From Candidatus Thorarchaeota archaeon (GTDB taxonomy: Archaea > Asgardarchaeota > Thorarchaeia > Thorarchaeales > Thorarchaeaceae), in contig DXJO01000038.1 of NCBI GenBank assembly GCA_019057475.1, positions 20,801 to 84,800 on the forward strand: 64,000 bases of DNA, given 5' to 3'. Within the stretch, counting starts at the first letter, position 1; each line of letters begins with the position of its first letter. The notes beneath the pieces are model-generated. The model was given only the letters and a program-made list of their open reading frames with translations, searched no databases and had not been told where the DNA came from. The position numbers were made by a program, and so were the translations under genes. Positions 1 to 30,379 of this stretch are shown one piece after another.

Positions 1-1
1 C

Positions 2-1442: not shown

Positions 1443-1732
1443 GAGATCCTGAAAATCTTGTCCTTCAGCTCACGGAATTGAGAAACAATATAGTCAGAAT
1501 GCAGAGCGAAATCGAACAGGAATATGAGAAGTTCCAGGTGGCGCTTAGCGGTGTTCTTCGCATCCTCTCAGGAGAGGGCAGCGCGATACTAAAGGCGATT
1601 CAAGGCTCTCCTGAAGAGGTGAAGGGGTATTTGATTCAGCTCGCATCACAGCTTCGCCAGCATACGACTAAATCTTGGGAGTCGTTGAAGATAGAACTGG
1701 ACAACATGATAGAGCTAATCCAAGGGAAATAG
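1439..1732 (+). CDS. hypothetical coiled-coil-like protein in replication operon
   Basis: ORF overlaps the GINS stop by 4 nt (GTGA), co-directional. Confidence 0.55.
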   Translation: MRDPENLVLQLTELRNNIVRMQSEIEQEYEKFQVALSGVLRILSGEGSAILKAIQGSPEEVKGYLIQLASQLRQHTTKSWESLKIELDNMIELIQGK

Positions 1733-1774
1733 GAACAGAAACTTCTAAGAGGGATTAACAACCTCTAGAATCCC

Positions 1775-1963
1775 ATGCCCACGAAGCATCGCGTACCACT
1801 TCTCTTGGTTGGAATCATATGTGTCACACTAGCGATGCTTGGCATCCTTATGCAGCCCTTTGAGAATGCAGGGCTGCTAGAGATACTGGGATACGAAGTG
1901 ATGGTGATTGGCTGTACAGTTCTCCTTCTGTTTCTCCTGTACAAAGGTGGTTTCTCAGAGTAG
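1775..1963 (+). CDS. small two-TM hypothetical protein
   Basis: Two hydrophobic segments in 62 aa; no motif. Confidence 0.4.
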   Translation: MPTKHRVPLLLVGIICVTLAMLGILMQPFENAGLLEILGYEVMVIGCTVLLLFLLYKGGFSE

Positions 1964-2139
1964 GACAGACGCGAAACTCAGGATACCCGTTTGGCTGCCA
2001 CCGGCCGAAGATTTGACACCCGAAAGCAGCGTGTATGTTTTCTCTTTGTAACAGATGTCAGTGATGAAAACTATTAATACCTGTCAGGAATTCGCAAACG
2101 CACTCAGCACATAGTTCGCTTAGTCTTTGTGGTGCGTTT

Positions 2140-2685
2140 GTGATGACCGAAACAGAAGAAAAGGCTGATCCGCCAGCCGTGATGATTGAACCCATTGACA
2201 TCTCCAAACTGGATCCGGACTTTCGAGAAGGAATCAGGAGCATGCCCAACGGGGAGGAACTCTCTGCGTGCTTTGCTTGTTCGACTTGTACCGCCGCATG
2301 CCCTATTGCGAACACTTGGAAGTACAAGCCCCATCAGCTGATACGCATGATTCTTCTCGGAATGCGTGAGGAGGTTCTATCCTCTGAGGAAATCTGGCTC
2401 TGTTTGACATGCTTTGAGTGTCAAGAACGCTGCCCACAGAATGTGCGGGTGACAGACATATTCTTCGACTGCAAGAACCTTGCGGCGGAGGAGAGCATGA
2501 TTCCGGACAGCATCGTAGGCCTAGCAAAAGAACTCTTAGACAAGGGCCAGCTCTATGTTGTCACTGCAGATTGGGAACGTGAGGACATGGATCTTGAGCC
2601 AGAAGTTCCAGGTCTCTCTACTGAAGAGTTCAAGGCTATTCTAAAAGGAACTAGAACAGGTCGTATTGTAGGGGGCGATGAATAA
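2140..2685 (+). CDS. hdrC: heterodisulfide reductase subunit C-like 4Fe-4S protein
   Basis: CFACSTCTAACP and CLTCFECQERCPQ clusters; followed by HdrB. Confidence 0.85.
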   Translation: MMTETEEKADPPAVMIEPIDISKLDPDFREGIRSMPNGEELSACFACSTCTAACPIANTWKYKPHQLIRMILLGMREEVLSSEEIWLCLTCFECQERCPQNVRVTDIFFDCKNLAAEESMIPDSIVGLAKELLDKGQLYVVTADWEREDMDLEPEVPGLSTEEFKAILKGTRTGRIVGGDE

Positions 2686-3552
2686 ATGCCATCATATAAT
2701 TTGTACATGGGTTGTAGTGTACCAGCAAATTATCCAAACTATGAAACTTCTCTGTTTAGAGTTGCAGACAAGTTCGGCATAGAATTGATTTACATGGAGG
2801 GTGTCAGTTGCTGTGGAAGTCCAAATCTCCGCGCGATAGATTATATGGGCTGGCTAATTGTTAATGCAAGGACATTGGCCGTTGCTGAGAAGAATGGTCA
2901 TGACATAGTCACCCCATGCAATGGTTGTTTTGGCTCTCTAAAGGACGTGTACCACTTTCTCATACATAATGCTGATTACAGAGAGAAGGTAAATGCCGAG
3001 CTAAAGAAAACCGGCGTGGAGTTCAAGGGCACTATCAAACCACGCCACTTCATTGAGGCACTATACAACGACATAGGCATTGACGAAATCAAGAAGAAGA
3101 TTACAAAGCCTCTTGATGGGGTAGGAATCGCTATCCATTATGGTTGTCATCTGTTACGCCCAAAAGATGTGACTGAGTTCAAACCAGAGATTTTCGAGGC
3201 TCTCATTAGAGTCACAGGTGCCAGTGTAGTTGAATATCCATTATGGAAGCAGTGCTGTGGTGCCACTGTACTGCCAGTCAATGAAGAACTCGCAATCAGA
3301 CTGGCGCGCGACAAGCTAAAGTCCATGAAGGAGGCGGGAGCAGTCTTCACGACAGTTTCCTGTCCTGCATGCGGAAATCAGCTCGATTTACAACAGCTGG
3401 GATTGAAGGAGTCATATGGGGAAGAGTACAACCTGCCAGTTCTCTTCATCACACAGATTCTGGGGCTTGCGATGGGTATGGGGGACGATGAAGTCGGTCT
3501 CGAGATGAACAGGGTTCCAGCAGATCCGATTCTCAAGCACCTGAGCGGTTGA
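2686..3552 (+). CDS. hdrB: heterodisulfide reductase subunit B-like (CCG domain)
   Basis: Two CCG-type cysteine motifs (SCCGSPN..TPCNGC; HYGCH..QCCGA..SCPACG). Confidence 0.88.
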   Translation: MPSYNLYMGCSVPANYPNYETSLFRVADKFGIELIYMEGVSCCGSPNLRAIDYMGWLIVNARTLAVAEKNGHDIVTPCNGCFGSLKDVYHFLIHNADYREKVNAELKKTGVEFKGTIKPRHFIEALYNDIGIDEIKKKITKPLDGVGIAIHYGCHLLRPKDVTEFKPEIFEALIRVTGASVVEYPLWKQCCGATVLPVNEELAIRLARDKLKSMKEAGAVFTTVSCPACGNQLDLQQLGLKESYGEEYNLPVLFITQILGLAMGMGDDEVGLEMNRVPADPILKHLSG

Positions 3553-3553
3553 G

Positions 3554-4816
3554 GTGAAGACAGTAGTGTCTGATCCGGTACTAGTCATTGGAGCCGGAGT
3601 AGCAGGATTAACCGCAGCTACTCAGCTGGCAGACTCCGGGATTCGAACTGTACTAGTTGACCGGCTGCCCATTGTTGGTGGAAATGCTATGGACCTGTAC
3701 AAGGCATTCCCAACGGATGATTGCTTCTATTGTTTCGAGGGGAGTCGATCGAGGCCTGGAATTCGGAAGTGCTTCTATAGAAGCGCGATTTTGGACCAGC
3801 CAAATATTGAACTCAAAGTCAATGCCGAAGTCACTGAGATAAGCGGCAGCCCTGGCAAGTTTCAAGCTAAACTTAGCGTAGGTTCACAGTACATTGATTC
3901 AAAGAAGTGCATCATGTGTGGACTTTGCATTGAGCGCTCTAACGCTTTCAGCTTACCTTCGCCACAATGTCAACCTCAGGCAGTGATTTATGACCCTGAG
4001 CTGAGTGACGAGGGCGCCAAGAAGGCAGAAGAGGAGTGCCCGACAAAGGCGATTAATCTGGGCGCCCAATCCTCGGAGGAAACGGTTCAGGTTTCCGACA
4101 TAGTAATTGCTACTGGTTATCATGAGATGAAACCTGTTTCAATAGATGAGTACGGTTACGGCAAGATACCCAATGTAGTTACGCAGTTAGAACTGGCTCA
4201 GATTCTTGACCCCAACGGTAAGTCGGGAGGCGCCTTGGTTCGCCCCTCCGACGATGGTCAGGTAAAGAGGGTGATGATGGTGCAATGTGTGGGCAGTAGA
4301 GATGAGAACTACTACCCCTTCTGCTCCAAGATATGCTGTGTCTATGCGCTAAAGCACGCTAACATCATTGTACTCGAACGAGATGGCACCCAAGTGACAG
4401 TAGTGTACATGGACATCCGAACTTACGACAGACATGAACGCTACTATCGAGTGGCGCGAGATGCAGGTGTCAGATTCGTCCGCGGAAGGGTAAGCAGACT
4501 TGAAGCATGTGAGGATGGAACCTTAGACATCATAGCCTATGATTCGCTGCTTGACAAGTACCTGAAATTCAATGTCGATCTCTTTGTTCTCTCATCAGCA
4601 TTGGAACCGCCAAAGGGCAGTGCTGAGCTGATAAAATCACTCGGTCTACACTCTGCTAGTGGCTTCGTGGGTCCGGCTGACTCCACCTCTGAGAACGAGG
4701 TTGTCGCTGGTGATCATGTTTACGTGTGTGGCGCAGCGACAGGTCCCGCTGAAATTCCTGAGAGTGTTACACAGGCGAGGGCGGTAGTAAGCATGATTCT
4801 ACAAAGTAGGAAGTGA
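3554..4816 (+). CDS. HdrA-like FAD/Fe-S oxidoreductase
   Basis: GAGVAGLTAA dinucleotide-binding motif; CIMCGLC; VQCVGSRDENYYPFCSKICC typical of HdrA. Confidence 0.82.
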   Translation: MKTVVSDPVLVIGAGVAGLTAATQLADSGIRTVLVDRLPIVGGNAMDLYKAFPTDDCFYCFEGSRSRPGIRKCFYRSAILDQPNIELKVNAEVTEISGSPGKFQAKLSVGSQYIDSKKCIMCGLCIERSNAFSLPSPQCQPQAVIYDPELSDEGAKKAEEECPTKAINLGAQSSEETVQVSDIVIATGYHEMKPVSIDEYGYGKIPNVVTQLELAQILDPNGKSGGALVRPSDDGQVKRVMMVQCVGSRDENYYPFCSKICCVYALKHANIIVLERDGTQVTVVYMDIRTYDRHERYYRVARDAGVRFVRGRVSRLEACEDGTLDIIAYDSLLDKYLKFNVDLFVLSSALEPPKGSAELIKSLGLHSASGFVGPADSTSENEVVAGDHVYVCGAATGPAEIPESVTQARAVVSMILQSRK

Positions 4817-12918: not shown

Positions 12919-13662
12919 CTATGCTTCGAATAGGCCATTTGCTTTCAGGATCATGGCAAGGTAACGATGAGGTGGAACCTGTACGACACGCCCCAAATCA
13001 ACATTCAAGATGTAGATGGAGTCAAGTGCAGTCTGAGCAAGCAAGTCCATTGCGATTGATGGCGACGAGTAATAGGTATCACAGAGAGCCTTCAGTTGCT
13101 GCAGTTCTTTCTTTTTGCGATCCTCTGGAAAACGGAGAAGGATTTCAGGTACTTGTAGAACATGGTAACCGGGTGTGGCTAGGGCGAATCTTTGGCTATG
13201 ACCACTATACCGGGCTATCTTTGCAGCAATCCGTGCCTGTCTATAGCGTATGGGTGCGAGAGCAGCCTCTGGCGGTACGAATCCGGTTTCCACTTCTACC
13301 ACTAGTGTTTTCCTAGGCCCTGGCGTAGTATTGTCCCTTCTGTATGGCTTCTGGTCGCTACGACTAGGTGAGTCTGTCGAAAATGCTGATTCTTCTGAGC
13401 GAGAGCTCACAGCATATATGTCGGCAACTAGGGCGCCACCATCAAGCGGATGTTCCACAACTACTCGGTACCCATGCTCAATTAGATGCCAGGCACAAAG
13501 AACCTCCATTACACTGTGGTTGATCTTCACGAGGCGTCGCTTGTGAAGGCTCACCAGCCTATTCCGGACTTCAACCAGCTGCTGCATCACTTTTGGATTT
13601 GGCCTAGGCTTGATTTGCATAAGCAGACGGTCCAAATCTCGGGAGAACTTGTCTTTCGCCAC
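12919..13662 (-). CDS. hypothetical protein, possible PD-(D/E)XK-like fold
   Basis: 'GGALVADIYAV...KTLVVEVETG' resembles a degenerate D..ExE nuclease core. Confidence 0.55.
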   Translation of the reverse strand: MAKDKFSRDLDRLLMQIKPRPNPKVMQQLVEVRNRLVSLHKRRLVKINHSVMEVLCAWHLIEHGYRVVVEHPLDGGALVADIYAVSSRSEESAFSTDSPSRSDQKPYRRDNTTPGPRKTLVVEVETGFVPPEAALAPIRYRQARIAAKIARYSGHSQRFALATPGYHVLQVPEILLRFPEDRKKKELQQLKALCDTYYSSPSIAMDLLAQTALDSIYILNVDLGRVVQVPPHRYLAMILKANGLFEA

Positions 13663-13739: not shown

Positions 13740-14045
13740 TTCTGGTTGGAGTTTCATAGGAAGGAGGGGAGGCTTACCCCGAAAGCCCGGAGGAATGCTC
13801 GTCATTCTAAACGGAAATCCTCACGGCCCCAGAGCTTGTCAGGCTCGAAAGGGTCATCCGTGGCTGAGTACTGTGAACAGGCGACTCTCGAGTCGTTTGA
13901 GAGTGCTACCGATCCCGCCATGGCAAAAACCGCGGAAACACCGTCTGCCGCCATCGACGCTCTAAAGGCCTCTGACAGTCATGGCAAAGCAGTGCAGCGG
14001 ACTGAAGCTCAGTCTGGAAAGAGGGATAATGTTCCTGTGAAGTTA
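13740..14045 (+). mobile_element. tnpB-less IS200/IS605-type 3'-end copy (solo omegaRNA-like remnant)
   Basis: About 270 nt closely matching 27080-27352 (3' end of tnpB), including an 80-nt block with no differences; no RuvC-encoding portion present. Confidence 0.75.
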
Positions 14046-14637: not shown

Positions 14638-15468
14638 TCATTTCTTCTTCTTGACGAGCCGGCCCTTCTCGTCCATTACTCCTTTTATGATTCCTATGAT
14701 TCGAAGCAGCATAATCACAGCTGCGTTTGCATTTTTCCTAATCGAAATCATCTTCTTCTTAGTGACGAAATCTACGACGCTATGCGCTGACTCATTTCCT
14801 TTCCTTCGAAGGCCCTTGATAGAAGCCAGATGGTTTTTCGTGAAACCATACTTCACATAGTCACCAGATATCTGCTCGAAGTTTAGAACTAAGGATTTTA
14901 GGGGGAGAAAACGGTTCGTACCATCATCAAAATACATCTTATGTTGATTCGTCGGTTCATACTTAAAGCGTAGAATATCAATTACTAGATTCTCCACCAG
15001 CTTTCTCAGCATGACACGTGCAGAGGAAAATGCTTCGTACTCAAAGCAGGTGTTAATCTCATCGATTAGCAAACTGTATACCTTGTCAACTCTATACACG
15101 TTTTCAATGTCTATGAAGTCAGGTTGCGAAGGCATCTTCCGGCTAGGTACACTAGTTTCCGCTTTTTCTCCGGGCAAATACATTTGTCCGGGAACTACCA
15201 TTGGGATTTCTTGGGCTAGATCCTTGAACTTCTGTGCAGAACGTTTCCTCATCACGAAGACCATAGTTTCTTTCTTGCATAATGGACATTCGACTCTGCA
15301 AATTCCTTTCTGTATATCCTCACCTGACCGACCTATTTTCATCTGGAATTTGCTGTACTCTTCCGGTTTGAAGTAGAATGCATACCACCCATGCTTGTCA
15401 AAAGCCAGTCGGAGATTCCTACCACAGTCTTCAGTTTGACAGACGATAGGAATGACTACTCCGCTCAT
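14638..15468 (-). CDS. zinc-ribbon/DUF4145-like (HEPN-related) protein
   Basis: C-x4-C..C-x2-C pairs in N-terminus; 'ARVMLRKLVENLVIDIL...IKGLRRKGNESAH' resembles the DUF4145 signature. Confidence 0.5.
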   Translation of the reverse strand: MSGVVIPIVCQTEDCGRNLRLAFDKHGWYAFYFKPEEYSKFQMKIGRSGEDIQKGICRVECPLCKKETMVFVMRKRSAQKFKDLAQEIPMVVPGQMYLPGEKAETSVPSRKMPSQPDFIDIENVYRVDKVYSLLIDEINTCFEYEAFSSARVMLRKLVENLVIDILRFKYEPTNQHKMYFDDGTNRFLPLKSLVLNFEQISGDYVKYGFTKNHLASIKGLRRKGNESAHSVVDFVTKKKMISIRKNANAAVIMLLRIIGIIKGVMDEKGRLVKKKK

Positions 15469-15522: not shown

Positions 15523-15955
15523 CTACACTGCGGAGTCCATCTTCTTTTCACACTTAAAAATGACTTCTCCTGCCATTTGAAGTGCCCAACAAATCCTATC
15601 AGGCCTGATCGCGTAGTTGTCACCTTCTTTCTCGAATCCGTCAGCGAGGCCTTCCTGTTTACTTGAAAGATATGTCGCAAGAGAGTCAGGATTAATCATC
15701 AATACATTCTGCAACTCATCTTTCGACATCCCTTGAGGATACTGTAACATCAATGCGCATACAATCTTCTGCTTTGCAGTAGCAGTTCCCTCGGGGAACG
15801 AGATTGCAGTCGCATATTGGTCCGATGCCAACATATGTCGCAACCTTGAGCTTAGTTAATCCAATCTCAATTTCTATCAATGCATCCGACCAATTTTCAA
15901 ATTCGCCGACTTGCAGTTCGTAGTTATTATAGAATGCTGAGAACGTCCGCTTCAT
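15523..15955 (-). pseudogene. frameshifted member of the local wHTH family
   Basis: ORFs 15716-15955 and 15523-15843 overlap in different frames and together align with the 17008-17502 product (NWSDAL..; KQKIVCALMLQYPQGMSKDEL..). Confidence 0.6.
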
Positions 15956-16237
15956 TTTGACAGTACCTCCTACATCAGTGCACTACCCCATTTCCTCCAT
16001 TTTAATCTGGCGTATCGTGATGACTACATCATTAACTTGGGAATCCTTCGAGCAAGAAACATCATAGTGAATTGTGAAACGGTGGAGTCGCTTAACATAA
16101 TTACTACTCATGCAAAGATTAGTTGTTATAAACCCGGTCCACTAATGATGGGCGATAATCAAATATCGGTCTTCTTCATTTAATTAGCCTGACTCTGATA
16201 ATATAACTTGGGTTCTCCTGCGAAGGTGATTAAGCGT

Positions 16238-16762
16238 ATGGAAGAGATTGAAACTAAGGGGGTTATGCTGGAAAGAACTGTACGAAACACGATCGTGCGC
16301 ATCACTGCAAAGAACGGCGAATCTCTTGATGAAGCATACAATAGGCTCGCCGAAATATGCCAGAGTATTGAGGATACTGAAGCAGCCAAAGAGCGCGAGA
16401 AGTGGACTGAGGATATGCACCCAGAGGTGGAAGAAGCCACATCAAAAGTAGAGGCTCTCCTTGGTTTGGATGCCAATGAGAGAAGAGGAGTAAGCCTAAC
16501 AGATGAGTATCACATGGTTATACTGTCACTGCTAATGCATTTTGACGAGTGCAAGGGTTCCGTTTCCATCGCCAAGGAATGGAATATTAACAGCGGCAGA
16601 GTTTCACGAGTCTTCACAGCGTCGCGCAAGAAGCATGAGAAGTACAAGGGGCATTTCGAGAAATGCAAGATGGGAGGTTACCGTTTCACTAGAGAAGGCC
16701 TAAATCACGCATTGGAATATGGGGTGTCCGCGATATTGGGCGAAGAGAGTGATGTCGGCTAG
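16238..16762 (+). CDS. wHTH-family protein, local paralogue 1
   Basis: 'YHMVILSLLMHFDECKGSVSIAKEWNINSGRVSRVFTASRKKHEKYKGHFEKCKMGGYRFTREGLNHALEYG' matches shared C-terminal module. Confidence 0.7.
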   Translation: MEEIETKGVMLERTVRNTIVRITAKNGESLDEAYNRLAEICQSIEDTEAAKEREKWTEDMHPEVEEATSKVEALLGLDANERRGVSLTDEYHMVILSLLMHFDECKGSVSIAKEWNINSGRVSRVFTASRKKHEKYKGHFEKCKMGGYRFTREGLNHALEYGVSAILGEESDVG

Positions 16763-17007
16763 CAAGCTCTAGTTTCGTGAGTAGGTCATTTCCCGATTAG
16801 ATGTCGGAAGCAAATAGTTCGCGTTTCTTCATACCTAAATTGGAGTGTTAAGCATTCAATCTGGTTTCAGAGTCATGCTGCCTAGGATCCCCCATTGACA
16901 TCTCCTCTCATTCGATACCAACAAAGCTAATGCTGATGATTTGATGAAAAAGATTTAGTATAGGTTCGGTACTCTCAGCCAACGCGCAAGCAAAGGACCA
17001 TGGTAGT

Positions 17008-17502
17008 ATGACAAAGGAAGAGGAATCTATAGATGACAGTGGGGACTGGGTAGAGCTGCAGATCAAGCATGGCAATACCATACTGTCAGTGGGTGGACAC
17101 AACTGGTCTGACGCCATAGCAAAGGCAGCTCTTGGAAAGATGAAATGCAGAATTGCTGCAGTTGCAGGTTACGCAACAGAGTACAGTTCGGAGCTGAAAC
17201 AGTGGGTCATTGTGTTTGGAGAACCCATAGGCCAAATCAAGAGTCGAATTGCACTAGCGTTGCTGTTAGCTTTTCCAGAAAGGCTCTCAAGGGAGGAGTT
17301 GGTGAAGATGGTCGACATCAAGCCAAATCGGATTAGGGAGTATCTTACCAACACGAAAAAAGGCGTCAAACCCCACGTAGACGAAAACAAGAAGTCCGGC
17401 ATTATTCTGAATACCAAGGGCTACTCATGGGCGGTTGGGATTCTGGAATCAATTGAAGAAGCTAGATCCCACGAATCGAAAGGTGATGATATTGAGCAGT
17501 GA
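17008..17502 (+). CDS. wHTH-family protein, local paralogue 2
   Basis: 'SRIALALLLAFPERLSREELVKMVDIKPNRIREYL' module. Confidence 0.65.
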   Translation: MTKEEESIDDSGDWVELQIKHGNTILSVGGHNWSDAIAKAALGKMKCRIAAVAGYATEYSSELKQWVIVFGEPIGQIKSRIALALLLAFPERLSREELVKMVDIKPNRIREYLTNTKKGVKPHVDENKKSGIILNTKGYSWAVGILESIEEARSHESKGDDIEQ

Positions 17503-17965
17503 TCAGACAGATTTGAAGATTCGATTGAGTAGAACGATGAATAACATCCAGATTGAAGTCTGGCTAAGCAGCGAAGATGAGTTCAGAGAAGGCTATGCGC
17601 TTCTCAGACGACTCTGCGAAAGGGCAGAATTTGAGGAACTCAGACTAGACCTGGGTCAATTTAGAGTCAGAGATGATGAAGGACACAGAATAGCTGAGCA
17701 AGTTACTGAGGGTACGCACAGAGTAGCTCTATCACTCCTTGATAGTTGGCCAGATTCCAAGAGAGTCACCGACATTCAAGTTGAAACCGGACTATCACAG
17801 GGACACGTTTCGAATATACTCGAGGGCCGTCGAGGCGACGTGGGACACTGGTTCGAGAAGGAGAGAGATCTCTGGAAGCTATCACCCATTGGAGTGAGAG
17901 CCATTGTCGAAGAGGTCGTTCCAGCCCTGTTTGAGCAACAACGTTCTGGAGGGGGAACTCAATGA
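17486..17965 (+). CDS. wHTH-family protein, local paralogue 3
   Basis: 'THRVALSLLDSWPDSKRVTDIQVETGLSQGHVSNILEGRRGDVGHWFEKERDLWKLSPIGVRAIVEEVVP'; overlaps previous stop. Confidence 0.7.
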   Translation: MILSSDQTDLKIRLSRTMNNIQIEVWLSSEDEFREGYALLRRLCERAEFEELRLDLGQFRVRDDEGHRIAEQVTEGTHRVALSLLDSWPDSKRVTDIQVETGLSQGHVSNILEGRRGDVGHWFEKERDLWKLSPIGVRAIVEEVVPALFEQQRSGGGTQ

Positions 17966-18486
17966 ACGCCAACGAAGAACAGGAGTTGACAGTCGAGATT
18001 GAGAAGTCTAGGAGCGGCACGAAGATTCGAGTTGTGGGAATATCCGCAAGTACGGACGAAGCGCAATTCGATCAAGCATACAAACTAGCGGATGAACTTT
18101 ATAGGAGAATCGAAACACTCGACCTTGAAATTGAATCGGAAAACAAAATCCAACAGGCCAAGAATCAAGTTTCTCATCTTTGGGTTCAAGAGGAAAACAA
18201 ATGGAAACTCTCCGCTTCTGTTACGGAGGCATCACACCGAATCGCACTGTCACTCCTTAGAAGCTATCCGAAGTGCATAACTCAAGCAGATGTAATCAGA
18301 GAAACAAACATAGCTCAGAAGACTGTCAGCAATCATCTAGGAGGACGAAAAAAGGAGGTTCGCATATATTTCTCGAAATGTGATGGCGGTTATCAACTAA
18401 GCCAAGATGGACTCAATTGGACCATCACGAAGGTCATTCCCAAGGCCATTGGCCAAGAGATGCCGAATGAAAGGAAAGAGGAATAG
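17962..18486 (+). CDS. wHTH-family protein, local paralogue 4
   Basis: 'SHRIALSLLRSYPKCITQADVIRETNIAQKTVSNHLGGRKKEVRIYFSKCDGGYQLSQDGLNWTITKVIP'; 4-nt ATGA overlap. Confidence 0.72.
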   Translation: MNANEEQELTVEIEKSRSGTKIRVVGISASTDEAQFDQAYKLADELYRRIETLDLEIESENKIQQAKNQVSHLWVQEENKWKLSASVTEASHRIALSLLRSYPKCITQADVIRETNIAQKTVSNHLGGRKKEVRIYFSKCDGGYQLSQDGLNWTITKVIPKAIGQEMPNERKEE

Positions 18487-18489
18487 TTA

Positions 18490-19464
18490 ATGACTGATTC
18501 CGACAAACAAACCTTCTTGATCAGGAAGAAATCAGCAGGACTGGAAATCGAAACACGAGTTGATGAGAAGAATCTCGATAATGCATACCTAAAATTGGAG
18601 GAATTATGGGCACATTTCAGTCAATTGGATGAAGAGTTGGAACCCAAACGAAAAATTCGCGATCTAGTGAAAGAATGTCAGAAGTACTGGGTTCGGAAAG
18701 ATGGGAAACGGTACCTAGCGAAGGACGTTGCTTCTGTATCTCATCGAGTCGGACTATCTGTGCTCGATGGGGGCAACAAAGGAAAGAGCCTGAAGGCCAT
18801 TGCCGACGAAACCGGGTTGTCTTCACCCCTTGCGCGGTATCACCTAACTGACGCCAAGGGAGCATCAGGGTGGTGCTTACAAGATGAAAAAAGACATTGG
18901 AAACTAACACCGGAGGGATTGGAGCACGTTACAAACATAGTAATTCCGTATTTACAGGGCCGTCACGGAAATGAACTCCACATGATTCTGAAATGGATGA
19001 ATAACAGAATATACAAGGGTCAGTTTGATAGCTGGATACTCGGCAAGGTCCAAGGAAAGGTGGACAAAACCAACTTCTTGGAATATGCCGTTGGATTGCT
19101 CCTATCAGCTTTAGGTTTCCTAGTATACCAAGTGGGCATGTATAACGATAGATTCGATATCGTTGCCTGTCCGCCAGATGGGTCTATCATGCTGGTATGT
19201 GACTGTACAACAGGTTCAGTCAGAAAGAAGTCATCGGGTCTCAGCATAGTCGTGGAAGAACTCAGGACCGAATTTCCAGAGATGCACGTAGAGGGTGTTG
19301 TTTTCACAACGGAAAGAATTAGTAAGACTGATCGAAAGGATTTGCTTAGCGACAAGATTGGGATTGTTGATGCAACTCAGATCAAGGAACTCCTCAAGCT
19401 AGCAAAATCCGATCGAAATCCCGAGCTGTTGTTTGATGTCATGAGGAAGAAGGAAACGCGATAG
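18490..19464 (+). CDS. wHTH-family protein fused to a possible restriction-endonuclease-fold domain
   Basis: N-terminal module 'SHRVGLSVLDGG..LKAIADETGLSSPLARYHL..WKLTPEGLEHVTNIVIP' plus C-terminal 'FLEYAVGLLLSALGFLVYQVGMYNDRFDIVACPPDGSIMLVCDCTTG'. Confidence 0.65.
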   Translation: MTDSDKQTFLIRKKSAGLEIETRVDEKNLDNAYLKLEELWAHFSQLDEELEPKRKIRDLVKECQKYWVRKDGKRYLAKDVASVSHRVGLSVLDGGNKGKSLKAIADETGLSSPLARYHLTDAKGASGWCLQDEKRHWKLTPEGLEHVTNIVIPYLQGRHGNELHMILKWMNNRIYKGQFDSWILGKVQGKVDKTNFLEYAVGLLLSALGFLVYQVGMYNDRFDIVACPPDGSIMLVCDCTTGSVRKKSSGLSIVVEELRTEFPEMHVEGVVFTTERISKTDRKDLLSDKIGIVDATQIKELLKLAKSDRNPELLFDVMRKKETR

Positions 19465-19519
19465 CTATTCTATGCCCAAACGCTCCATAAACAGCTTTGG
19501 TTACTCACTCTTGCATTGT

Positions 19520-20404
19520 TCACTCACTTGGGCGCAGGACAGAACTCATGTATTCCCTTACTCTCTCCGTTTCGAAGAAGTAGTACAATCCATCATCTGA
19601 TAAACGGAAACCTCTCTTGCATTTTGAGAAGTATTGAGAGTGGTCATGCTGTATCCCCGTTATGATTCGGGAAATGGATGACTTAACCAGACCAGTTTCC
19701 AAGGCGATTTCTTGCAGAGTCCTGCAATCGGGGTACGCTCTAAGGAGTGAAACCATAATCTTGTAAGGGGGCTTTGACTCTTCGGACTTTCTGCCAAGAG
19801 CTTCAAGCGAGCCATCATTTACATAGATAGACCAGTGACCGTCTTCCCTGCGCCAGAGATTAGTAGTCCCCTGTTTTGCACGCTTAATCATTTCATCGAA
19901 CTCTTCAGTTACATAGTCAATGGATTGAACCGGATGTTTCTCTGGAAGGGCATTGAGGACACGCAGAATCTGGTCCTGAACCTTCCGTGGGCTCTTCACA
20001 GATGTGGAATTCCCAAAAATTCTCTTGTATTCGATGACGTAGTAGCTTTTAGTGTCGAAAGGAAGTTCTCTTATCTTTTGAGTGAGTAGAATAAATGGCT
20101 TGCTCAAACCCCATGCAAGACCTAACTCTAGGAAGACATTCGGATTCGAGCCTGACAGGTCAGCAATAATCGCCCTAGATTCTTGTATGTTGGCACATAT
20201 CTTGCACCAAATCTCGGGTTTGCTCAAGTCGGAATCGGCTCTATGAACAGTCCAACCTGGCAAAGATTTCAGAACATCGTGAAATAGGCTCTGGGGCGCC
20301 TCCTTCTCTCGAAAGGGCATAAGCACAAACAGTTTGCGTGGATCATACTTCACGTTGACACCACACCGCTCGTAGTTCTTCGGGCATATGATTGGTATAC
20401 TCAT
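19520..20404 (-). CDS. TIR/nucleoside-2-deoxyribosyltransferase-like domain fused to the local wHTH module
   Basis: 'KLFVLMPF..AIIADLSGSNPNVFLELGLAWGLSKPFILLTQ' followed by 'YKIMVSLLRAYPDCRTLQEIALETGLVKSSISRIITG...YFSKCKRGFRLSDDGLYYF'. Confidence 0.7.
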   Translation of the reverse strand: MSIPIICPKNYERCGVNVKYDPRKLFVLMPFREKEAPQSLFHDVLKSLPGWTVHRADSDLSKPEIWCKICANIQESRAIIADLSGSNPNVFLELGLAWGLSKPFILLTQKIRELPFDTKSYYVIEYKRIFGNSTSVKSPRKVQDQILRVLNALPEKHPVQSIDYVTEEFDEMIKRAKQGTTNLWRREDGHWSIYVNDGSLEALGRKSEESKPPYKIMVSLLRAYPDCRTLQEIALETGLVKSSISRIITGIQHDHSQYFSKCKRGFRLSDDGLYYFFETERVREYMSSVLRPSE

Positions 20405-20494: not shown

Positions 20495-23400
20495 TCAATG
20501 AGTGACACTTCCTAGAAGATGCTCAATCTTGGAGATGAGTCCATCATAGTTTTCTATCCTCTCCTTTGCTTCCTCATCACTTCCGAAGTACGACTCCACA
20601 ATCTCTTGAATCAGGCTTTCAGCATGGTCAAGTGTTCTAGCAACCCCGCTCTGAGGAGGTGTTGTCGCAAGGATCCAGTTGTACACCTGTTCCCCTGTCT
20701 TGTTGGATCTAGCACTAAGCTGAATTTCTGACTTGAACTTGAGCACAGTACAGACCAACTTCTCTTCGTCCATCTCAAGATAGCTGCCAGCCCGGATTGC
20801 CCTCAGGCCTAGTTCTCTCACGATTCGTCGACTCTCTCTGAACACCATGCCCTCTCTAGTCGTGGGGTCTGGAACGAACTCAAACGCGAACTCGCACCAT
20901 GCATTTCCGAGAAATGCACCTCCTGCCAACATCATTGCAGATATCTCTGAGTCGTCAAGTCCAGTCTTGGTCAGTCCAGATAGGCTGGTATCCTTGTCCC
21001 CATCCGAGAGCTCTACGCGCCAGCATGCACCATGACACTCCATTTCTCCGCTGGCTATGGGACATAGCTCCTCGTCGTGAGTCACAACCAGCGTTTGATG
21101 AGCGACCTCTCGGCTCGTGAGGTCCTCTGCGGTTGATGGCAGGGTCGTGCGAAAGCGGACGTACGGAGTCCTCTGCTCTACGTAGGGCCTCAGAATCTCC
21201 AGTGCATCATAATCAATGTCATCATAGGGGTTCCATGTCAGATAGGTTTCTGTGTCTTTCAGACTCTGCAGTGGAAGACCATCGACTATTGGACGTCGAA
21301 GCAGCGCGAGGAGCTCAGACGTGTGCTGGATGGACCAGCTCTCGATCAATTCGTTTCCATCAGCTCTATTGAACTCAATCGTGTAGTGGTCGTCATCCAC
21401 GTCCAGTGTGCATTTCGTCGAAACACAAAGGCTGAGTGACTCCGATATATCCTCAAGTACTCCTTGCACTCTCTTCCCTAGTGCCCGCGGAAATCGAAAC
21501 CATTCCGGCAGTAGTGGGAAGTCCTGTTCAGGCATTGTTGTGATCTGAAGTCCGCGGATGCCAGCAAGCGTTTCTCCTCTCCTCCTTATCGTGGTGAGCT
21601 TGCCCAGAGGCGTCCAATTCTCTTCATCGCGAAACCAGAAGTAATCTCCCCCGGCGGACCTATGCACGATTACGTCGTACGTGGCAGTTGCACCTACATG
21701 CTTAGACAAGCACAACGCAATCTCATCCTGACGGATTGCAGTCCAGCTTACTGTTTGCTTGGGCACAAATGGTTCGCATCCAATCCATACCCCAATCAGC
21801 ATTTTCCGACGGTCGTAGGGGTTCTCTATCGCCAAGCAATACTCCGGAGTTTCGTGCTCTTCTGACAGCACCAGAATCTGACCGTAGCTCACAGTACTCA
21901 GTTCAGGAACGTTCAGTGAGGTCATGGCTTTAGCCCGTTTCGCAAGTCCTGACCACACAGCTCTCAGATCGAGTCTAGGTGTGACCTCTTCTGACTCAGA
22001 GTTCATAAGGACGAATCCCATCTGCATGATTTGCCAAGACTTGAGAATCCTCCATAGCTCCGATAAATGCCTGTCAGCCAAAGTTGGGAACTCCCTAGTG
22101 AGCCCCAAGAGCAACAGGAAGAGGTAGTTGCCAAGAGAAACGGACAGGTACGGTCGCACACTGAGAAGATCCAGCAGCATCTCCCTGTCCTGTGCTCTCA
22201 GTCCCTCTACCAACCGGCTATCTCGAACCCACTGGAGCGTCGCCCATACTGGCTCAGAAACCGGACTCGTCTGCAAAAATCTCACGATGTCATCAAGCGC
22301 CTCGATGTGACCCTGTTTTCCATCGCCAATCGAAATCAATTCATCGAGCTCATCGAGGAACTGCGACCAGCTCGACCCGTCCTTCTCATGTCCCACTTGC
22401 CGAAGGATCCTGACGGCCTGACGAAGCCGCCTGAGTTCAAGCCGCGTGGCTCTCTCGATATCATGGCCAAAGCGCAGAGTGGCCTCTATGGGAGGTCTGT
22501 AGATACTCGCGCCCGTGCACTCTCGATTACTGTCCTTCCTGTAGGCACGTTGATGTGTGATGCTGTTCCTTGGCAGCAACGCAACACTCTCAACGAATGC
22601 TCTCCCGTGTCCCACTGTCTGCATTCTTGTCCTGTATTTCAGAAAAGGAGCTCCAGAAGGCCTGCTCTTCGAGCCATATTCAGACAGTGGCACGACATGA
22701 ATTTGCCGTCCCCCAGTATCATCCGCTTTCTGTACAATGCTCTCTGACAGATACTGCTTCAACTGAGGCACGAGCTCGATGGAGTCCCGAAAGAAATCAT
22801 CTTGCATCTCTGAATTGTGCATGACATCAGCAGACCGAATCACCGTTCGTCCTCTTTCTCCTTCTTGAGCGGATGAAACTGATGCTCGCCTTGGCTCATT
22901 CCAGAACCTTGGAGACCAGTTGTGAAGCGGTAGTACCTCTACCATGTTGAAAGAGATACCATCAATGTCCTGTCTTATGATGACTCTGAGGTCATCGAAC
23001 GCAGATGTCAACTGGCCTGATGCATACGGTCGCACGGGGAGATTCCATACGATCTCTGTGACGAAGCGGTTGAGTTCGGAACCTTGGAAGAACGGCTCCA
23101 TTGTCCTTCTCTGATAGGATGCTGAAGTACCTTCTGAGTTTCTAGGCCTGTCAAACCAGACTACCGTACAACCTGCCTCATTCAACTCAGCCGCGATTAT
23201 GCGTCGCAGCTCATAGAGTGCCGGCCGTAGTCGTTTTGGTGTGCAGTCATCCAGTACATCCCAGCCACTGACCACAACAACCCTACCATCTAGAGCATCC
23301 CATTCCTCTCCCACGAGCTTTGCTATCGACAGGTCCCCGATTCCTCTGAAGAGGAAGTCCTGTATAGCTGACGAGGCATCGCTGAACATGACTGCGCGGA

Positions 23401-25435
23401 AGAACTCGCGCATGTGGTCACTGCCTTGATCTGACCTGAGTCTAGTCCTAGCCAAAGACTCGGCTCCAAAGTCACCTGCCAAGTCCAACCACAGCATTTC
23501 AGAGTGATCATTCTCCTGTTGGAGGCCGTGGATGAGCTCAAGTCCGTGCCAGTACTTGGCTATCCAAGCAGCAGAGGGCCCTGATCTAGACGCGGAGTTC
23601 ACACTCAGATAGAGAATGAAGCGGCCTCTCGCCTTACCATTCTCCTCTAGTGGGCTGCGTTGCTCAACACCCCACAAAGGCCAGCCCTTTTTCCCAATCT
23701 GTTTCAACTGGTCAGCAGCTATGCCATGCACGATGATAGCAAGTTTCAGCCAATCCCGGGTTCCGTCATTCAAGACAACTCCCACTGGTCTGCTGAGATG
23801 CTCTTTGAGAAGGACTGAGGCGTTCTCACACAGAGCTCGCGTGAGTCGCCATAGTCTGGGACGTACCACAGAGGAGTCCTGCGAAGTGTCAAGGACCACA
23901 GTACCGGTCAGAGGCCGCACCACTGAACGGTCCTCTGTGATTCTCACATACTCCGTAGCAAGACCTTCGGCATAGGCCTCGAGCTGTTTCATGCCGTACC
24001 CCGTTGGCGTTCCGGCAACAGACGCATTCCACTCGGCGTTCGTGAGCCCGCGCTTTCTGAGAACAAACTTGGGAATAACCTTCTGTCCGTGTTTCTTGGA
24101 ATCCTTCTTCTCAGCTTTAATCTCCCAATTGAAAGCAGTCTTGCTCTTGATGTCAAAGACAGCCACGGGTATCCATACGGTCAGTTTGCCCGGCACTCTC
24201 GGGTTCTGAATCACATGACGTCTGAACATCACGAGATCCGCCCGCCCCTTCCCTAGGGAGGTTTCCACAGGGATTTCTGCTGCAAGGAGCCACTGGTCAC
24301 CCTCCTCCACCCAACGGTCACCGTTGAAGACCACCGACTCCAAGTCGTATGGCTGGACGAGTCCGTTAGTCATCAACCTGTGCCATCTGATGCCGTGCCA
24401 TCTCGCCCTCCGCATAACTTCCTTTTGTAGCCACTCACCGTCCTCATCCCGAAGGATGCCACGTTCGCATAGGTCCTTGAGGAAGTCCGCCCAGGCCTGA
24501 CGAATCTCACTCTCGGAGGCTTCCTCTTCCGGATACCTCAACTGCGTGACCTGGTCCAGGAAGAATGAAAGGTCCCACCTAGCCCTCGACTCCTCAATGG
24601 ACTGTGTCAGTGATGGCGCCCGCCCATAGTGTGTCCCGTAAAACGCCTCGATCTCCTGGACTATCTCTCGGAGAATCCAGTTCGCGTCAAGCTGTTCACT
24701 ATCCCTCCGCCCACTTCTTCTCGAACGCTTGAACCCCCGCTTCCCGCTCTCCTTCGAGGTGTAGAGATACTCGAGGAACGGTGACAGCCGCCATATCAGC
24801 AGGCCAACATACCTGCGCGCGTTGTTCATCGGCACGTCGTTGATGAAGCACTTACGACACAGTTCGAAGATGTGGGCTCTCAGCATGTCCCCGAAGTCCA
24901 GCTCCGCAAGGACAGTGTGAGCCACCTCAACCCATGGATAGTCGCTCCCGCCTTCGTACCCTGCAATCCACCTCTTGCCGCGTCGACCTGCTGTCTTTGG
25001 CTCTGGAAACGGAAACCTTGTCACGACCCAGTTCCTCAGTTGTGCGCCAGCCATGTTCAGTAGTCTGTTGAGCGGCCCAATCCTCCCCTTCCTCTCGTTC
25101 TGTATCCGCTTGTACTCCCTGTTGCCGTAGCGCGCGGTGGTTTCCCAGATCATCTTGTTGAAGTTGCGACGCATGTGTTTCTCGACGTTTGTAATGTGAG
25201 AAAAGTCGGGTTTGCCACCGCGTCTGCTCGCGCGCCACTTGCTCAGTGCTTCGGTCCACTGCCTTTGAGTGCTGGCATAGACATCCTCGATGCTCTTGAT
25301 CGTGCGCTCGCGGAAGAGGTCACGCAGTGCCGAAAGACCGTTGAGGTACGCGCGAGCTATGGCCTGCGCTGGGTCGTGGGGGTATGGCCTCTGTTCACTC
25401 TCCTTGAGGTTATCCATCGCGGGCACGCGTATCAC
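20495..25435 (-). CDS. giant (1646 aa) protein of unknown function with a PD-(D/E)XK-like motif
   Basis: Single uninterrupted ORF; 'GKGRADLVMFRRH...PVAVFDIKSK' matches the D-xn-(D/E)xK nuclease core; no other recognised domain. Confidence 0.65.
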   Translation of the reverse strand: MIRVPAMDNLKESEQRPYPHDPAQAIARAYLNGLSALRDLFRERTIKSIEDVYASTQRQWTEALSKWRASRRGGKPDFSHITNVEKHMRRNFNKMIWETTARYGNREYKRIQNERKGRIGPLNRLLNMAGAQLRNWVVTRFPFPEPKTAGRRGKRWIAGYEGGSDYPWVEVAHTVLAELDFGDMLRAHIFELCRKCFINDVPMNNARRYVGLLIWRLSPFLEYLYTSKESGKRGFKRSRRSGRRDSEQLDANWILREIVQEIEAFYGTHYGRAPSLTQSIEESRARWDLSFFLDQVTQLRYPEEEASESEIRQAWADFLKDLCERGILRDEDGEWLQKEVMRRARWHGIRWHRLMTNGLVQPYDLESVVFNGDRWVEEGDQWLLAAEIPVETSLGKGRADLVMFRRHVIQNPRVPGKLTVWIPVAVFDIKSKTAFNWEIKAEKKDSKKHGQKVIPKFVLRKRGLTNAEWNASVAGTPTGYGMKQLEAYAEGLATEYVRITEDRSVVRPLTGTVVLDTSQDSSVVRPRLWRLTRALCENASVLLKEHLSRPVGVVLNDGTRDWLKLAIIVHGIAADQLKQIGKKGWPLWGVEQRSPLEENGKARGRFILYLSVNSASRSGPSAAWIAKYWHGLELIHGLQQENDHSEMLWLDLAGDFGAESLARTRLRSDQGSDHMREFFRAVMFSDASSAIQDFLFRGIGDLSIAKLVGEEWDALDGRVVVVSGWDVLDDCTPKRLRPALYELRRIIAAELNEAGCTVVWFDRPRNSEGTSASYQRRTMEPFFQGSELNRFVTEIVWNLPVRPYASGQLTSAFDDLRVIIRQDIDGISFNMVEVLPLHNWSPRFWNEPRRASVSSAQEGERGRTVIRSADVMHNSEMQDDFFRDSIELVPQLKQYLSESIVQKADDTGGRQIHVVPLSEYGSKSRPSGAPFLKYRTRMQTVGHGRAFVESVALLPRNSITHQRAYRKDSNRECTGASIYRPPIEATLRFGHDIERATRLELRRLRQAVRILRQVGHEKDGSSWSQFLDELDELISIGDGKQGHIEALDDIVRFLQTSPVSEPVWATLQWVRDSRLVEGLRAQDREMLLDLLSVRPYLSVSLGNYLFLLLLGLTREFPTLADRHLSELWRILKSWQIMQMGFVLMNSESEEVTPRLDLRAVWSGLAKRAKAMTSLNVPELSTVSYGQILVLSEEHETPEYCLAIENPYDRRKMLIGVWIGCEPFVPKQTVSWTAIRQDEIALCLSKHVGATATYDVIVHRSAGGDYFWFRDEENWTPLGKLTTIRRRGETLAGIRGLQITTMPEQDFPLLPEWFRFPRALGKRVQGVLEDISESLSLCVSTKCTLDVDDDHYTIEFNRADGNELIESWSIQHTSELLALLRRPIVDGLPLQSLKDTETYLTWNPYDDIDYDALEILRPYVEQRTPYVRFRTTLPSTAEDLTSREVAHQTLVVTHDEELCPIASGEMECHGACWRVELSDGDKDTSLSGLTKTGLDDSEISAMMLAGGAFLGNAWCEFAFEFVPDPTTREGMVFRESRRIVRELGLRAIRAGSYLEMDEEKLVCTVLKFKSEIQLSARSNKTGEQVYNWILATTPPQSGVARTLDHAESLIQEIVESYFGSDEEAKERIENYDGLISKIEHLLGSVTH

Positions 25436-25683: not shown

Positions 25684-27480
25684 GTGGGTCTCTCCAAGGG
25701 AATAGTAACAAGTGTCAAGGTCCCGATTCGTTGGGACTCTATGACCAAACGGCAGCAAACTCGCCTTTCCCGAATCACAAGCCGGGATACTAGGGTGATT
25801 CGTGCCTTCCTTGGAGTGATTGCACGTCACGAGAAAGAACTTCTTGTCGGTAAGAAAAAGAAGAAGATCAGCGGTGCAAAGCTTGAGAAGCTGACCCTGA
25901 CTGCTACAAGATTCAAAGACGCATCTAAGAACCGAACCACAGTTCCCCACGACTTCAAGAAACGATTCCCGAACATATCGCTGAATGAGCTTCAGGAGTG
26001 CAGACAGGTGGCCGCTGCAATGTGGCAGAGCTATCTCGAACTTGGGGGCAAGCCTCCTCTCCATACTCATGGTTACAGGCCGCGCAAGCTGCCTCGGTAC
26101 ATCTATACTCGAAGGTTCAAGATAGTCTATACTCCTGAGAAAGAGATCAAGCACTGGCTCAGGCTGATGGACTCCCTCGACTCTGAAAAGACAGAGGGAC
26201 GATATCATGACTATCTGATGGTTCCTCTCAATCCCTCTTCCTATCATCTGAATAGGATCAACGAGGGCAAGGTGACGTCACTTCGGCTTCTGAAAGATAC
26301 CCGGAAGAAGTGGTGGGTGGTGTTCGCTGTACGCGTGGATGTCCCCGCGGTTGACAACAGCTCGAAGCCACCAGCAGTGACAGGCATAGACCTAGGGATC
26401 AACAAGGCAGTCTGTTCGGTAGTCTTGACTCAGACTCGTGTCAGGTTCGTGGGATACTTCACGCAGCCTGAGAAGGTCAAGCGAATCAAGCGGTACGATG
26501 AGATGGTCGACTCTCTTCAGAGAGAGATGAACACCAGACTCAACAACGGGCAGTCAGCAGATGGAGTCATCCAAAGACTTCGCGAGCTGAGCGGGCGACG
26601 TAACCGAATCAGTATCGACCACGACCGGGTGCTTGTCAGGCGGCTCACTGACCACATCTTGAAGTTGTCAAAGAAGTACGACCTGTACGTGGCGATTGGC
26701 AAACTGACCGGGATTCGGAAGAGTGCCAACAGGGACAGCAAGAAACCGAAGGCATTCCGGGCGATGGTCGGACGGTGGTCTTTTGCAAGAGTCACCAATG
26801 CGTTGAGGCAGAAGCTGTCCGAGAGCGGCTGGAAAGTCAGTGGTCGTGATTCCCGATTCATTCCGGTCCGCGAGTACTGGACTAGCCGAGTCTGTTCCAA
26901 GTGTGGGCACATTGGAATACGCCCGAAGCAGTCTGTCTTCATCTGCCATACCTGCGGTCACAAGACCAATGCCGACAAGAACGGCGCCATCAATATCGCA
27001 AGGCGCCTCATTATGCTCATTCCTTCACTGAAGGATGAGAAAAGACTAGGGAGTTGGCTTCATCCTCACGAAAGAGAGGGGTGGCTTACCCCGAAAGCCC
27101 GGAGGAACGCTCGCCGTTCTAAAGGGAAGTCCTCACGGCCCCAGAGCTTGTCAGGCTCGAAAGGGTCGTCCGTGGCTGAGTACAATGAGCAAGCGACTCT
27201 CGAGTCGTTTGTGAGTGCTACCGATCCCGCCATGGTAAAAACCGCGAAAAAACCGTCTGCCGCCATCGACGCTCTAAAGGCCTCTGACAGTCATGGCAAA
27301 GCAGTGCAGCGGACTGAAGCTCAGTCTGGAAAGAGGAACGATGTTCCCTTGAAGTCTAGCGAAGCCCGTGTCATAGCGTCGGCGTGGAACCCGATGTATG
27401 CTGGCGACAGTCGTCACGGGAAGGGTGGAACGCGTGGGTTGAAGGTTACCGAGGGTGTTCACTCACTTTCTGAAACTTGA
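25684..27480 (+). CDS. tnpB: IS200/IS605-type TnpB (RuvC-like RNA-guided nuclease family)
   Basis: RuvC-I VTGIDLGINKAV; zinc finger CSKCGHIGIRPKQSVFICHTCGHKTNADKNGAINIARR; C-terminal tail after about 27070 may not be functional protein. Confidence 0.92.
   Translation: MGLSKGIVTSVKVPIRWDSMTKRQQTRLSRITSRDTRVIRAFLGVIARHEKELLVGKKKKKISGAKLEKLTLTATRFKDASKNRTTVPHDFKKRFPNISLNELQECRQVAAAMWQSYLELGGKPPLHTHGYRPRKLPRYIYTRRFKIVYTPEKEIKHWLRLMDSLDSEKTEGRYHDYLMVPLNPSSYHLNRINEGKVTSLRLLKDTRKKWWVVFAVRVDVPAVDNSSKPPAVTGIDLGINKAVCSVVLTQTRVRFVGYFTQPEKVKRIKRYDEMVDSLQREMNTRLNNGQSADGVIQRLRELSGRRNRISIDHDRVLVRRLTDHILKLSKKYDLYVAIGKLTGIRKSANRDSKKPKAFRAMVGRWSFARVTNALRQKLSESGWKVSGRDSRFIPVREYWTSRVCSKCGHIGIRPKQSVFICHTCGHKTNADKNGAINIARRLIMLIPSLKDEKRLGSWLHPHEREGWLTPKARRNARRSKGKSSRPQSLSGSKGSSVAEYNEQATLESFVSATDPAMVKTAKKPSAAIDALKASDSHGKAVQRTEAQSGKRNDVPLKSSEARVIASAWNPMYAGDSRHGKGGTRGLKVTEGVHSLSET
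27060..27352 (+). ncRNA. predicted omegaRNA/right-end region overlapping tnpB 3' end
   Basis: Closely matches the solo copy at 13.77-14.04 kb; GGGG..CCCC and GAACG-CTCGC-CGTTC hairpins; a covarying base pair between copies. Confidence 0.55.
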
Positions 27481-27798: not shown

Positions 27799-28209
27799 AT
27801 GCCCCCTAAGGATATGAACGTCATAATTTTTGGATGTATGCAGTGCTGTTACGCTGCAGCGGACCTAGCGGGCACGATGAAGTTACAGTACGACGTGACG
27901 AGCCGGCTAATCCGCATGCCGTGCACCGCGCGCCTGGACATCAACTTCATCCTGAAGGCGTTGCAGGAGGGTGCGGACGGCGTGCTGATTGTTGGCTGTC
28001 ATCCGGGAGACTGCGCGTTCAAGACCGGCAACCTAGGGGCAGAGCGACGCGTCAGATTCGCAAGGAAGCTGATTGGCCAACTGGGCCTGAACGAGAATCG
28101 TGTGAAGATGGTGTTCGTGAGCGCTGCAGAGGGCGACCTGTTCGTCAAGCACGTCAACGACTTCGCAGATGAGATCAGGGCGATAGGGCCAAACCCGATA
28201 AGGCTCTAG
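27799..28209 (+). CDS. mvhD: MvhD/FlpD-type Fe-S subunit (F420-nonreducing hydrogenase delta-like)
   Basis: FGCMQCCYAAADLAG..RMPCTARLD..GCHPGDCAFKTGN. Confidence 0.85.
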   Translation: MPPKDMNVIIFGCMQCCYAAADLAGTMKLQYDVTSRLIRMPCTARLDINFILKALQEGADGVLIVGCHPGDCAFKTGNLGAERRVRFARKLIGQLGLNENRVKMVFVSAAEGDLFVKHVNDFADEIRAIGPNPIRL

Positions 28210-28971: not shown

Positions 28972-29339
28972 AATGTATGTACGCTGCAGCGGACCTAGCG
29001 GGCACGATGAAGTTACAGTACGATGTCACGTGTCGGCTAATCCGTATGCCCTGCACCGCGCGCCTGGACATCAACTTTATTCTGAAGGCCTTGCAGGAGG
29101 GGGCGGACGGCGTGCTGATTGTCGGTTGTCATCCCGGAGACTGCGCGTACAAGACGGGGAACCTGGGGGCAGAGCGACGCGTCAGATTCGCAAGGAAGCT
29201 GATTGGCCAACTGGGCCTGAACGAGGGCCGAGTGAAGATGGTGTTCGTGAGTGCGGCGGAGGGCGACCTGTTCGCGAGGGAGGTCAACGATTTCGCTGAC
29301 GAGATCAGGGCGATAGGACCTAACCCTATTAGGCTCTAA
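28972..29339 (+). pseudogene. second mvhD copy, 5'-truncated with loss of QCC
   Basis: Near-identical to 27829-28209 but tgtatg[cagtgctgt]tac reduced to tgtatgtac (9 nt missing) and upstream sequence unrelated. Confidence 0.75.
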
Positions 29340-30285: not shown

Positions 30286-30320
30286 AGGCACCTTGAAAAT
30301 CCACTCTGTAAGGAAACGAC

Positions 30321-30379
30321 AGGTCAATGACTTCACTGACGAGATCAGGGCGATAGGGCCGAACCCGATAAGACTCTGA
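30321..30379 (+). pseudogene. third mvhD remnant (3'-terminal about 20 codons only)
   Basis: aggtcaatgacttcactgacgagatcagggcgatagggccgaacccgataagactctga encodes VNDFTDEIRAIGPNPIRL*, matching the 3' end of both other copies. Confidence 0.8.

Follow-up and report, generated by a model that had tools for sequence, protein, structure and literature searches.

We analyzed a 64,000-nucleotide stretch of a Candidatus Thorarchaeota genome (assembly GCA_019057475.1, contig DXJO01000038.1; the window) and found a gene cluster at 14.6 to 20.4 kb built around one winged-helix module, which occurs there both in short standalone proteins and fused to enzyme-like domains. The cluster consists of U and A (both minus strand, A frameshifted), B, C, D, E, and F (all plus strand), and G (minus strand). 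It combines the shared module and its fusions with a coupled operon, a gene order that recurs in a relative, a nuclease domain that swaps its N terminus, a patchy distribution, and decaying copies. With slightly less than even confidence, we interpret it as a mobile, Thorarchaeota-specific defense cassette with exchangeable effectors. The role in defense is argued from domain types and neighborhoods only. The window's genome (G000) is an Asgard assembly of 3.34 Mb in 56 contigs and is 96% complete.

A distinct winged-helix family

Seven products between 15.5 and 20.4 kb had the module in common in within-family BLAST comparisons (database size set to 100,000). The best E value per member ranged from 3.8e-7 to 9e-16, against a minimum of 0.018 among 1,400 composition-preserving shuffles. 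An earlier model-made reading of the letters (the original prediction) had already proposed this sharing; it counted six products while listing seven positions, and seven genes are present. Two generic winged-helix open reading frames tried from elsewhere in the window gave no match to the family. The core subfamily comprises B, D, E, F, and G (B versus E, E = 1e-10; B versus G, E = 3.5e-6; F versus D, E = 1.7e-10), and the consensus that had been printed for all members fits these five. It does not extend to A and C, which form a second, more diverged subfamily set apart in the tree (A-C, E = 2.5e-7; C-E, E = 8e-4). A also matches its counterparts in three relatives (G031_a, G221_a, and G016_a).

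The module is specific to this family and is not a generic ArsR/MarR domain, the outcome that the original prediction had named as fatal to its proposal. The best helix-turn-helix Pfam model reached an E value of only about 0.02 or worse, short of every cutoff, and the ArsR, MarR, and IclR profiles did not claim the module as a member. The short members matched no Pfam, NCBIfam, PADLOC, or PHROGs family above noise. Among 228 Asgard genomes, family profiles matched 7, and these 7 belong to a single taxonomic family; the twelve-member profile gave a handful of genomes, and a second-subfamily profile added G221. Ordinary winged-helix genes should be numerous in any Asgard genome, so a set of matches this narrow argues against a generic domain. 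Searches beyond Asgard archaea used narrow peptide patterns, and the restriction to this lineage can be relied on only within the set of 228. Resemblance to MarR proteins was at the fold level only (weak matches to BpsR, MepR, and MexR, found by Foldseek with the winged helix of the F model). We found no description of the family in the open-access papers searched.

Some matches were discarded. A PADLOC CARF match (E = 5e-4) and an eighth profile match, to a CARF protein in genome G035, are due to the winged-helix part of Csa3-like CARF proteins, which are not relatives. Pfam and PADLOC matches to LmuB, IcmW, and Cry toxin covered small stretches at E > 1e-3 and were treated as noise.

Gene layout and coupling

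The short members are A (15523 to 15955, minus strand), B (16238 to 16762, plus strand, 174 amino acids [aa]), C (17008 to 17502, plus strand, 164 aa), D (17486 to 17965, plus strand, 159 aa), and E (17962 to 18486, plus strand, 174 aa). Improved start codons were assigned to B (ATG at 16238) and D (ATG at 17486). D starts inside C with a 17-nucleotide (nt) overlap, E overlaps D by 4 nt (ATGA), and F begins 3 nt past the end of E; C-D-E-F therefore form a translationally coupled operon, in agreement with the four coupled genes first noticed. A, noted from the start as frameshifted, is split by a single frameshift near 15.84 kb, and intact orthologues are present in G031 and G221. U lies beyond the interval originally delimited (15523 to 20404), and we count it as a cassette member. 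A recognition-helix-like S-x-x-V-S motif is present in B, D, and E. B to E are acidic (net charge of -2 to -8), while F (+4), G (+6), and U (+16) are basic, a contrast consistent with partner roles that proves nothing.

Enzyme-like domains of F, G, and U

F (18490 to 19464, plus strand) joins the winged-helix module (residues ~1 to 160) to a PD-(D/E)XK-type nuclease domain (residues ~190 to 324). Its AlphaFold2 model, built from a shallow alignment of six sequences, has a mean predicted local distance difference test score (pLDDT) of 73.5. The model runs from two strands through a 37-residue helix, a beta hairpin at YWVRKDGKRYL, and the winged helix to a nuclease core in the order alpha-beta-beta-beta-alpha-beta. 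It thus bears out the beta-beta-alpha N terminus and the winged helix that had been read from the sequence and gives the WVRKDGK segment the form of a hairpin. Five proteins that carry the F-type nuclease domain share residues E198, D223, D/E238, and K247. F accordingly shows the predicted core fold and the catalytic residue pattern of a PD-(D/E)XK nuclease, with weak Foldseek matches to Nt.BspD6I, Card1, and NucS/EndoMS, and the restriction endonuclease-like region claimed for this product holds up.

The same nuclease domain occurs in 450-aa proteins that we call X (E = 9e-15 and 8e-10), where it sits on an unrelated, non-winged-helix N terminus of 300 residues. The nuclease is thus a separable module found with two different N termini. 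F and X resemble Mrr-like and other PD-(D/E)XK restriction nucleases in their E...D...(D/E)C(T/G)...K pattern, and Mrr_cat matched one relative at E = 0.038. They differ in that the lysine is displaced past the usual ExK position and that the cassette itself has no methyltransferase.

G (19520 to 20404, minus strand) combines a catalytic domain like those of nucleoside 2'-deoxyribosyltransferase (NDT) and DNPH1, itself TIR-like (residues ~20 to 155), with the winged-helix module (residues ~168 to 290). Its AlphaFold2 model is better than that of F (pLDDT, 79.8). The top Foldseek matches of the N-terminal domain were NDT and DNPH1 (E = 2.3e-4), with the TIR domains of SfSTING and SPARTA ranking below them. 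The best PDB profile matches were DNPH1/Rcl (E = 0.002), and Nuc_deoxyrib_tr (PF05014) matched at E = 6.6e-4, under its curated cutoff; G had no detectable sequence match among PDB chains. A PADLOC effector model labeled TIR also matched (E = 1.1e-10). E93, the glutamate of an ELG motif, is invariant in three NDT-winged-helix proteins, and the fold together with this conserved region places G in the NDT/DNPH1 superfamily. Judged from model and profiles, the enzyme domain appears to fit NDT/DNPH1 better than classical TIR. We therefore kept the deoxyribosyltransferase half of the "TIR/deoxyribosyltransferase-like" label first given to it and dropped TIR as the sole label.

G resembles the type II-A retron effector (Retron-Eco1/Ec86) in having an NDT-like catalytic domain and a winged helix, a resemblance at the fold level only, and is presumably of similar size. 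NDT and WH are gene labels used for retron operons, and NDT-winged-helix is the type II-A effector architecture (PMC12548924); Retron-Eco1 is cited there as forming NAD+-hydrolyzing filaments (Carabias 2024, via PMC12548924). In contrast to such retrons, the window's genome has no detectable reverse transcriptase (RT): RVT_1 gave no match at E ≤ 0.001 anywhere in it, and controls matched. A further difference is that the winged helix of G has standalone paralogues and a nuclease-fused one. We rejected retron identity because of the missing RT; by analogy, G may work like a retron effector, yet we do not file it as a retron.

U (14638 to 15468, minus strand, 276 aa) has an N-terminal zinc-ribbon-like region with cysteine pairs and a C-terminal DUF4145/HEPN-like domain. 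It is a conserved partner in the cassette, with orthologues 55 to 57% identical adjoining gene a in G031 and G221. The Rx4-6H motif of HEPN domains is RKGNESAH-like in the window copy, and its spacing is shifted in the others. Proteins of DUF4145, a HEPN family, are reported to occur with zinc ribbons and within restriction-modification operons (PMC3710099). U resembles these proteins in its zinc-ribbon-like cysteines and DUF4145-like domain and lies beside HsdM, a type I methylase, in G221. It differs in that the match is weak (E = 8e-4 for Pfam DUF4145 against the G221 orthologue, under the curated cutoff) and that U is tied to the winged-helix cassette.

Recurrence in related genomes

One related locus is in G031, a genome of the same taxonomic family as the window's, which GTDB names Candidatus Thorarchaeota archaeon CSMAG_407. 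It covers positions 1 to 4637 of JAUVHR010000102.1, where the contig edge truncates u. Its genes run u, a, and h (minus strand) and c, d, e, and X (plus strand), followed by a gene encoding an EVE-restriction endonuclease (REase) fusion. The order u-a-h-c-d-e-nuclease equals U-A-B-C-D-E-F of the window except for h in place of B. The orthologues of C, D, and E in G031 are 39% (at the same operon position), 51%, and 44% identical, respectively. G016 carries h, e, X, and d on one contig (the E orthologue is 37% identical). On a different contig it has an a-type gene beside an NDT-winged-helix gene, which is a full-length G orthologue with 45% identity. G221 has a-U-h beside the HsdM gene, G226 has a lone NDT-winged-helix gene, and G007 and G026 each have a single short member adjoining mvhD. 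The association with nuclease and NDT/TIR-like enzymes thus recurs, and homologues are not scattered in the way that would have spoken against the original proposal.

In the tree, the orthologues of a, of c, and of d each group with support even though they come from different genera (96/90 for c and 100/99 for d; the e-e grouping is weaker, at 83/79). Because these clades span genera, the paralogues are old: they arose before the lineages split and were kept and inherited, or transferred, as a set. Besides the frameshifted A, a second member is disrupted, the d gene of G016 (L017:9172-9650, minus strand), which has an internal TAG stop. An apparent TAG inside G016_a was discarded, as the match had run past the gene's own stop and no nonsense codon is involved. 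Contig C51 of the window's genome (L092, G000:C51, 6985 to 12069) holds a decayed F/X-type nuclease fragment adjoining the decayed 3' end of a gene for a 1646-aa protein. Together, these disrupted and decayed copies suggest fast turnover, as expected of defense or mobile genes.

In a global search, patterns made from E alone and from three orthologues found only CSMAG_407 in 84,980 genomes; the patterns are narrow, which leaves absence elsewhere unproven. A 12-row alignment had no block conserved enough for scanning. Viral contigs held no relatives of E, E orthologues, U, or the NDT alignments, phages and plasmids none of E, and plasmids none of F. The NDT part of G was the only widespread part in the phage and plasmid searches, and DUF4145-like relatives of U were present on three haloarchaeal plasmids.

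A possible defense cassette and its alternatives

The neighbors of the cassettes and of the same nuclease domain are defense-type genes: HsdM in G221; the EVE-REase gene in G031; DUF4238 and DUF4062 genes with an F-type nuclease domain at G031:C128; and, onward from the decayed fragment at L092, genes for a TPR protein, an intact X-like nuclease (466 aa), McrB, McrC, and a methylase. The enzyme domains of F and of G both retain residues of catalytic type. If the cassette acts in defense, the short acidic proteins would dimerize or hetero-oligomerize via the long helix preceding the winged helix. Their assembly would bind the DNA of an invading virus or plasmid, or else a nucleoprotein signal, and F and G would join it through the same winged-helix module. 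The PD-(D/E)XK nuclease of F could then cut DNA, the NDT-like domain of G could cleave the N-glycosidic bond of a nucleotide, nucleoside, or NAD+ and so shut down the cell, and U would be an accessory or third effector.

Several observations weigh against this interpretation. Most of the set is found together at no more than three loci; the contigs of these metagenome-assembled genomes are short, and two of the cassettes are cut by contig ends. G is oriented opposite to the C-F operon, and the single members in G026, G007, and G226 show that parts can exist alone. The cassette has no ATPase, helicase, or obvious sensor. With A frameshifted and the G016 d gene interrupted by a stop, some copies may be dead. 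The fold search with the nuclease stayed above the threshold of E < 0.001 in the PDB library.

The arrangement has a precedent in the effector-associated domains (EADs) of NTP-dependent conflict systems and in Abi-NTD modules, with which it shares one domain that is both standalone (B to E) and effector fused (F and G) in one locus. Described cases include small N-terminal modules whose fusion partner is variously a HEPN, REase, TIR, or NDT domain (PMC3710099), EADs that couple effectors by homotypic contacts (PMC7159879), and single small domains that appear by themselves or on core proteins as well as on a range of effectors (REase, TIR, NDT, and HEPN) (PMC7159879, PMC3710099). Here, the shared domain differs in being a winged helix with four to six standalone paralogues, and no MoxR/vWA, STAND, or GTPase core is present at the cassette. 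No described EAD family matched above noise in Pfam or PADLOC, and no ATPase or GTPase was found among the cassette genes. We rate the cassette as modular effector coupling, a known logic, here with a new coupling domain and in a cassette restricted to one lineage.

It is somewhat unlikely that the genes are instead independent defense modules, i.e., G alone as a retron-like effector, C-D-E-F, and U-A, which draw on a common module family but differ in mechanism and have gathered at a hotspot between cupin and mvhD. The solitary NDT-winged-helix fusion of G226, the lone members beside mvhD in G026 and G007, the pairing of U-A with HsdM in G221, and the strand of G would all fit such independence. 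Independence accounts poorly for the C-D-E-nuclease order and U-A pair found together in both G000 and G031 and for the a-type gene beside the NDT-winged-helix gene in G016.

A bolder form of the defense interpretation is also unlikely in our view: an Asgard-specific immunity in which winged-helix adaptor paralogues jointly recognize foreign DNA and dock nuclease, NDT/NADase, and HEPN effectors with the same module, needing no NTPase or RT. Such a system would be the archaeal counterpart of death-domain/EAD coupling, with a DNA-binding fold in the coupling role.

Catalogs of defense systems in Asgard archaea have relied mostly on homology to systems known from bacteria (PMC11291487, PMC12988326). 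A lineage-specific cassette in which swappable effectors share a nonenzymatic module would mean that these archaea evolved modular immunity of their own. It would also offer a small and testable example of effectors coupled by a winged helix and would carry the NDT-winged-helix design of retrons into a setting without RT.

Regulators are common among archaeal winged-helix proteins, and the MarR-type fold matches would suit short proteins acting as transcription factors for the cassette or a neighboring mobile element, with the winged helix reading host promoters and the fusions being autoregulated. We find this decidedly unlikely: four to six diverged, cotranscribed paralogues kept together, two of the family fused to enzymes, would be unusual for regulators, and the intergenic regions examined share no operator-like inverted repeat, repeats upstream of B and C being at chance level only. 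Least probable is that the cluster is cargo or machinery for the maintenance or spread of a mobile element made up of the 1646-aa PD-(D/E)XK-like protein and a divergent TnpB-like protein; the tnpB 3' end is present on both sides of the cluster as a 280-bp direct repeat (13764 to 14043 and 27076 to 27355, 93% identical), the decayed nuclease and 1646-aa fragments are paired at G000:C51, and the G007 member adjoins the same two genes, but this gene pair, present in more than 30 of the 47 genomes of the family, is mostly unaccompanied by winged-helix members, and it is missing from the G031 and G221 cassettes as far as the available sequence extends.

Neighboring genes

The EVE-REase gene beside the G031 cassette (L016:5028-6047, minus strand) encodes a fusion of an EVE domain with a type II REase-like domain and is a candidate modified-DNA restriction enzyme. 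Just outside the cluster of the window, 12919 to 13662 (minus strand) encodes a 247-aa protein with a nuclease-like VADIY...LVVEVETG pattern and no Pfam match.

On the other side, the 1646-aa protein (20495 to 25435, minus strand) has a PD-(D/E)XK-like stretch (GKGRADLVMF...VFDIKSK) and no Pfam match, and the divergent TnpB-like gene (25684 to 27480, plus strand) encodes 598 aa. The two genes have matches in 32 and 33 of the 47 family genomes, respectively, often adjacent and divergent, and the pair appears to be a common two-gene element that is undescribed. For the TnpB-like gene of the window and loci L155-L169, an alignment of 15 relatives showed a glycine in every one at the usual position of the RuvC-II glutamate (AIG[KRQ] or close variants), with the first and last aspartates kept. 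As judged from these residues, the proteins may be either nuclease dead (TldR-like) or active with a relocated glutamate.

The mvhD-like gene beyond this pair is duplicated (27850 to 28208 and 28980 to 29338, 90% identical), with a third remnant of 58 nt at 30320 to 30377. G007 likewise has two mvhD-like copies (L019, 84%). These duplicates suggest repeated insertion at mvhD.

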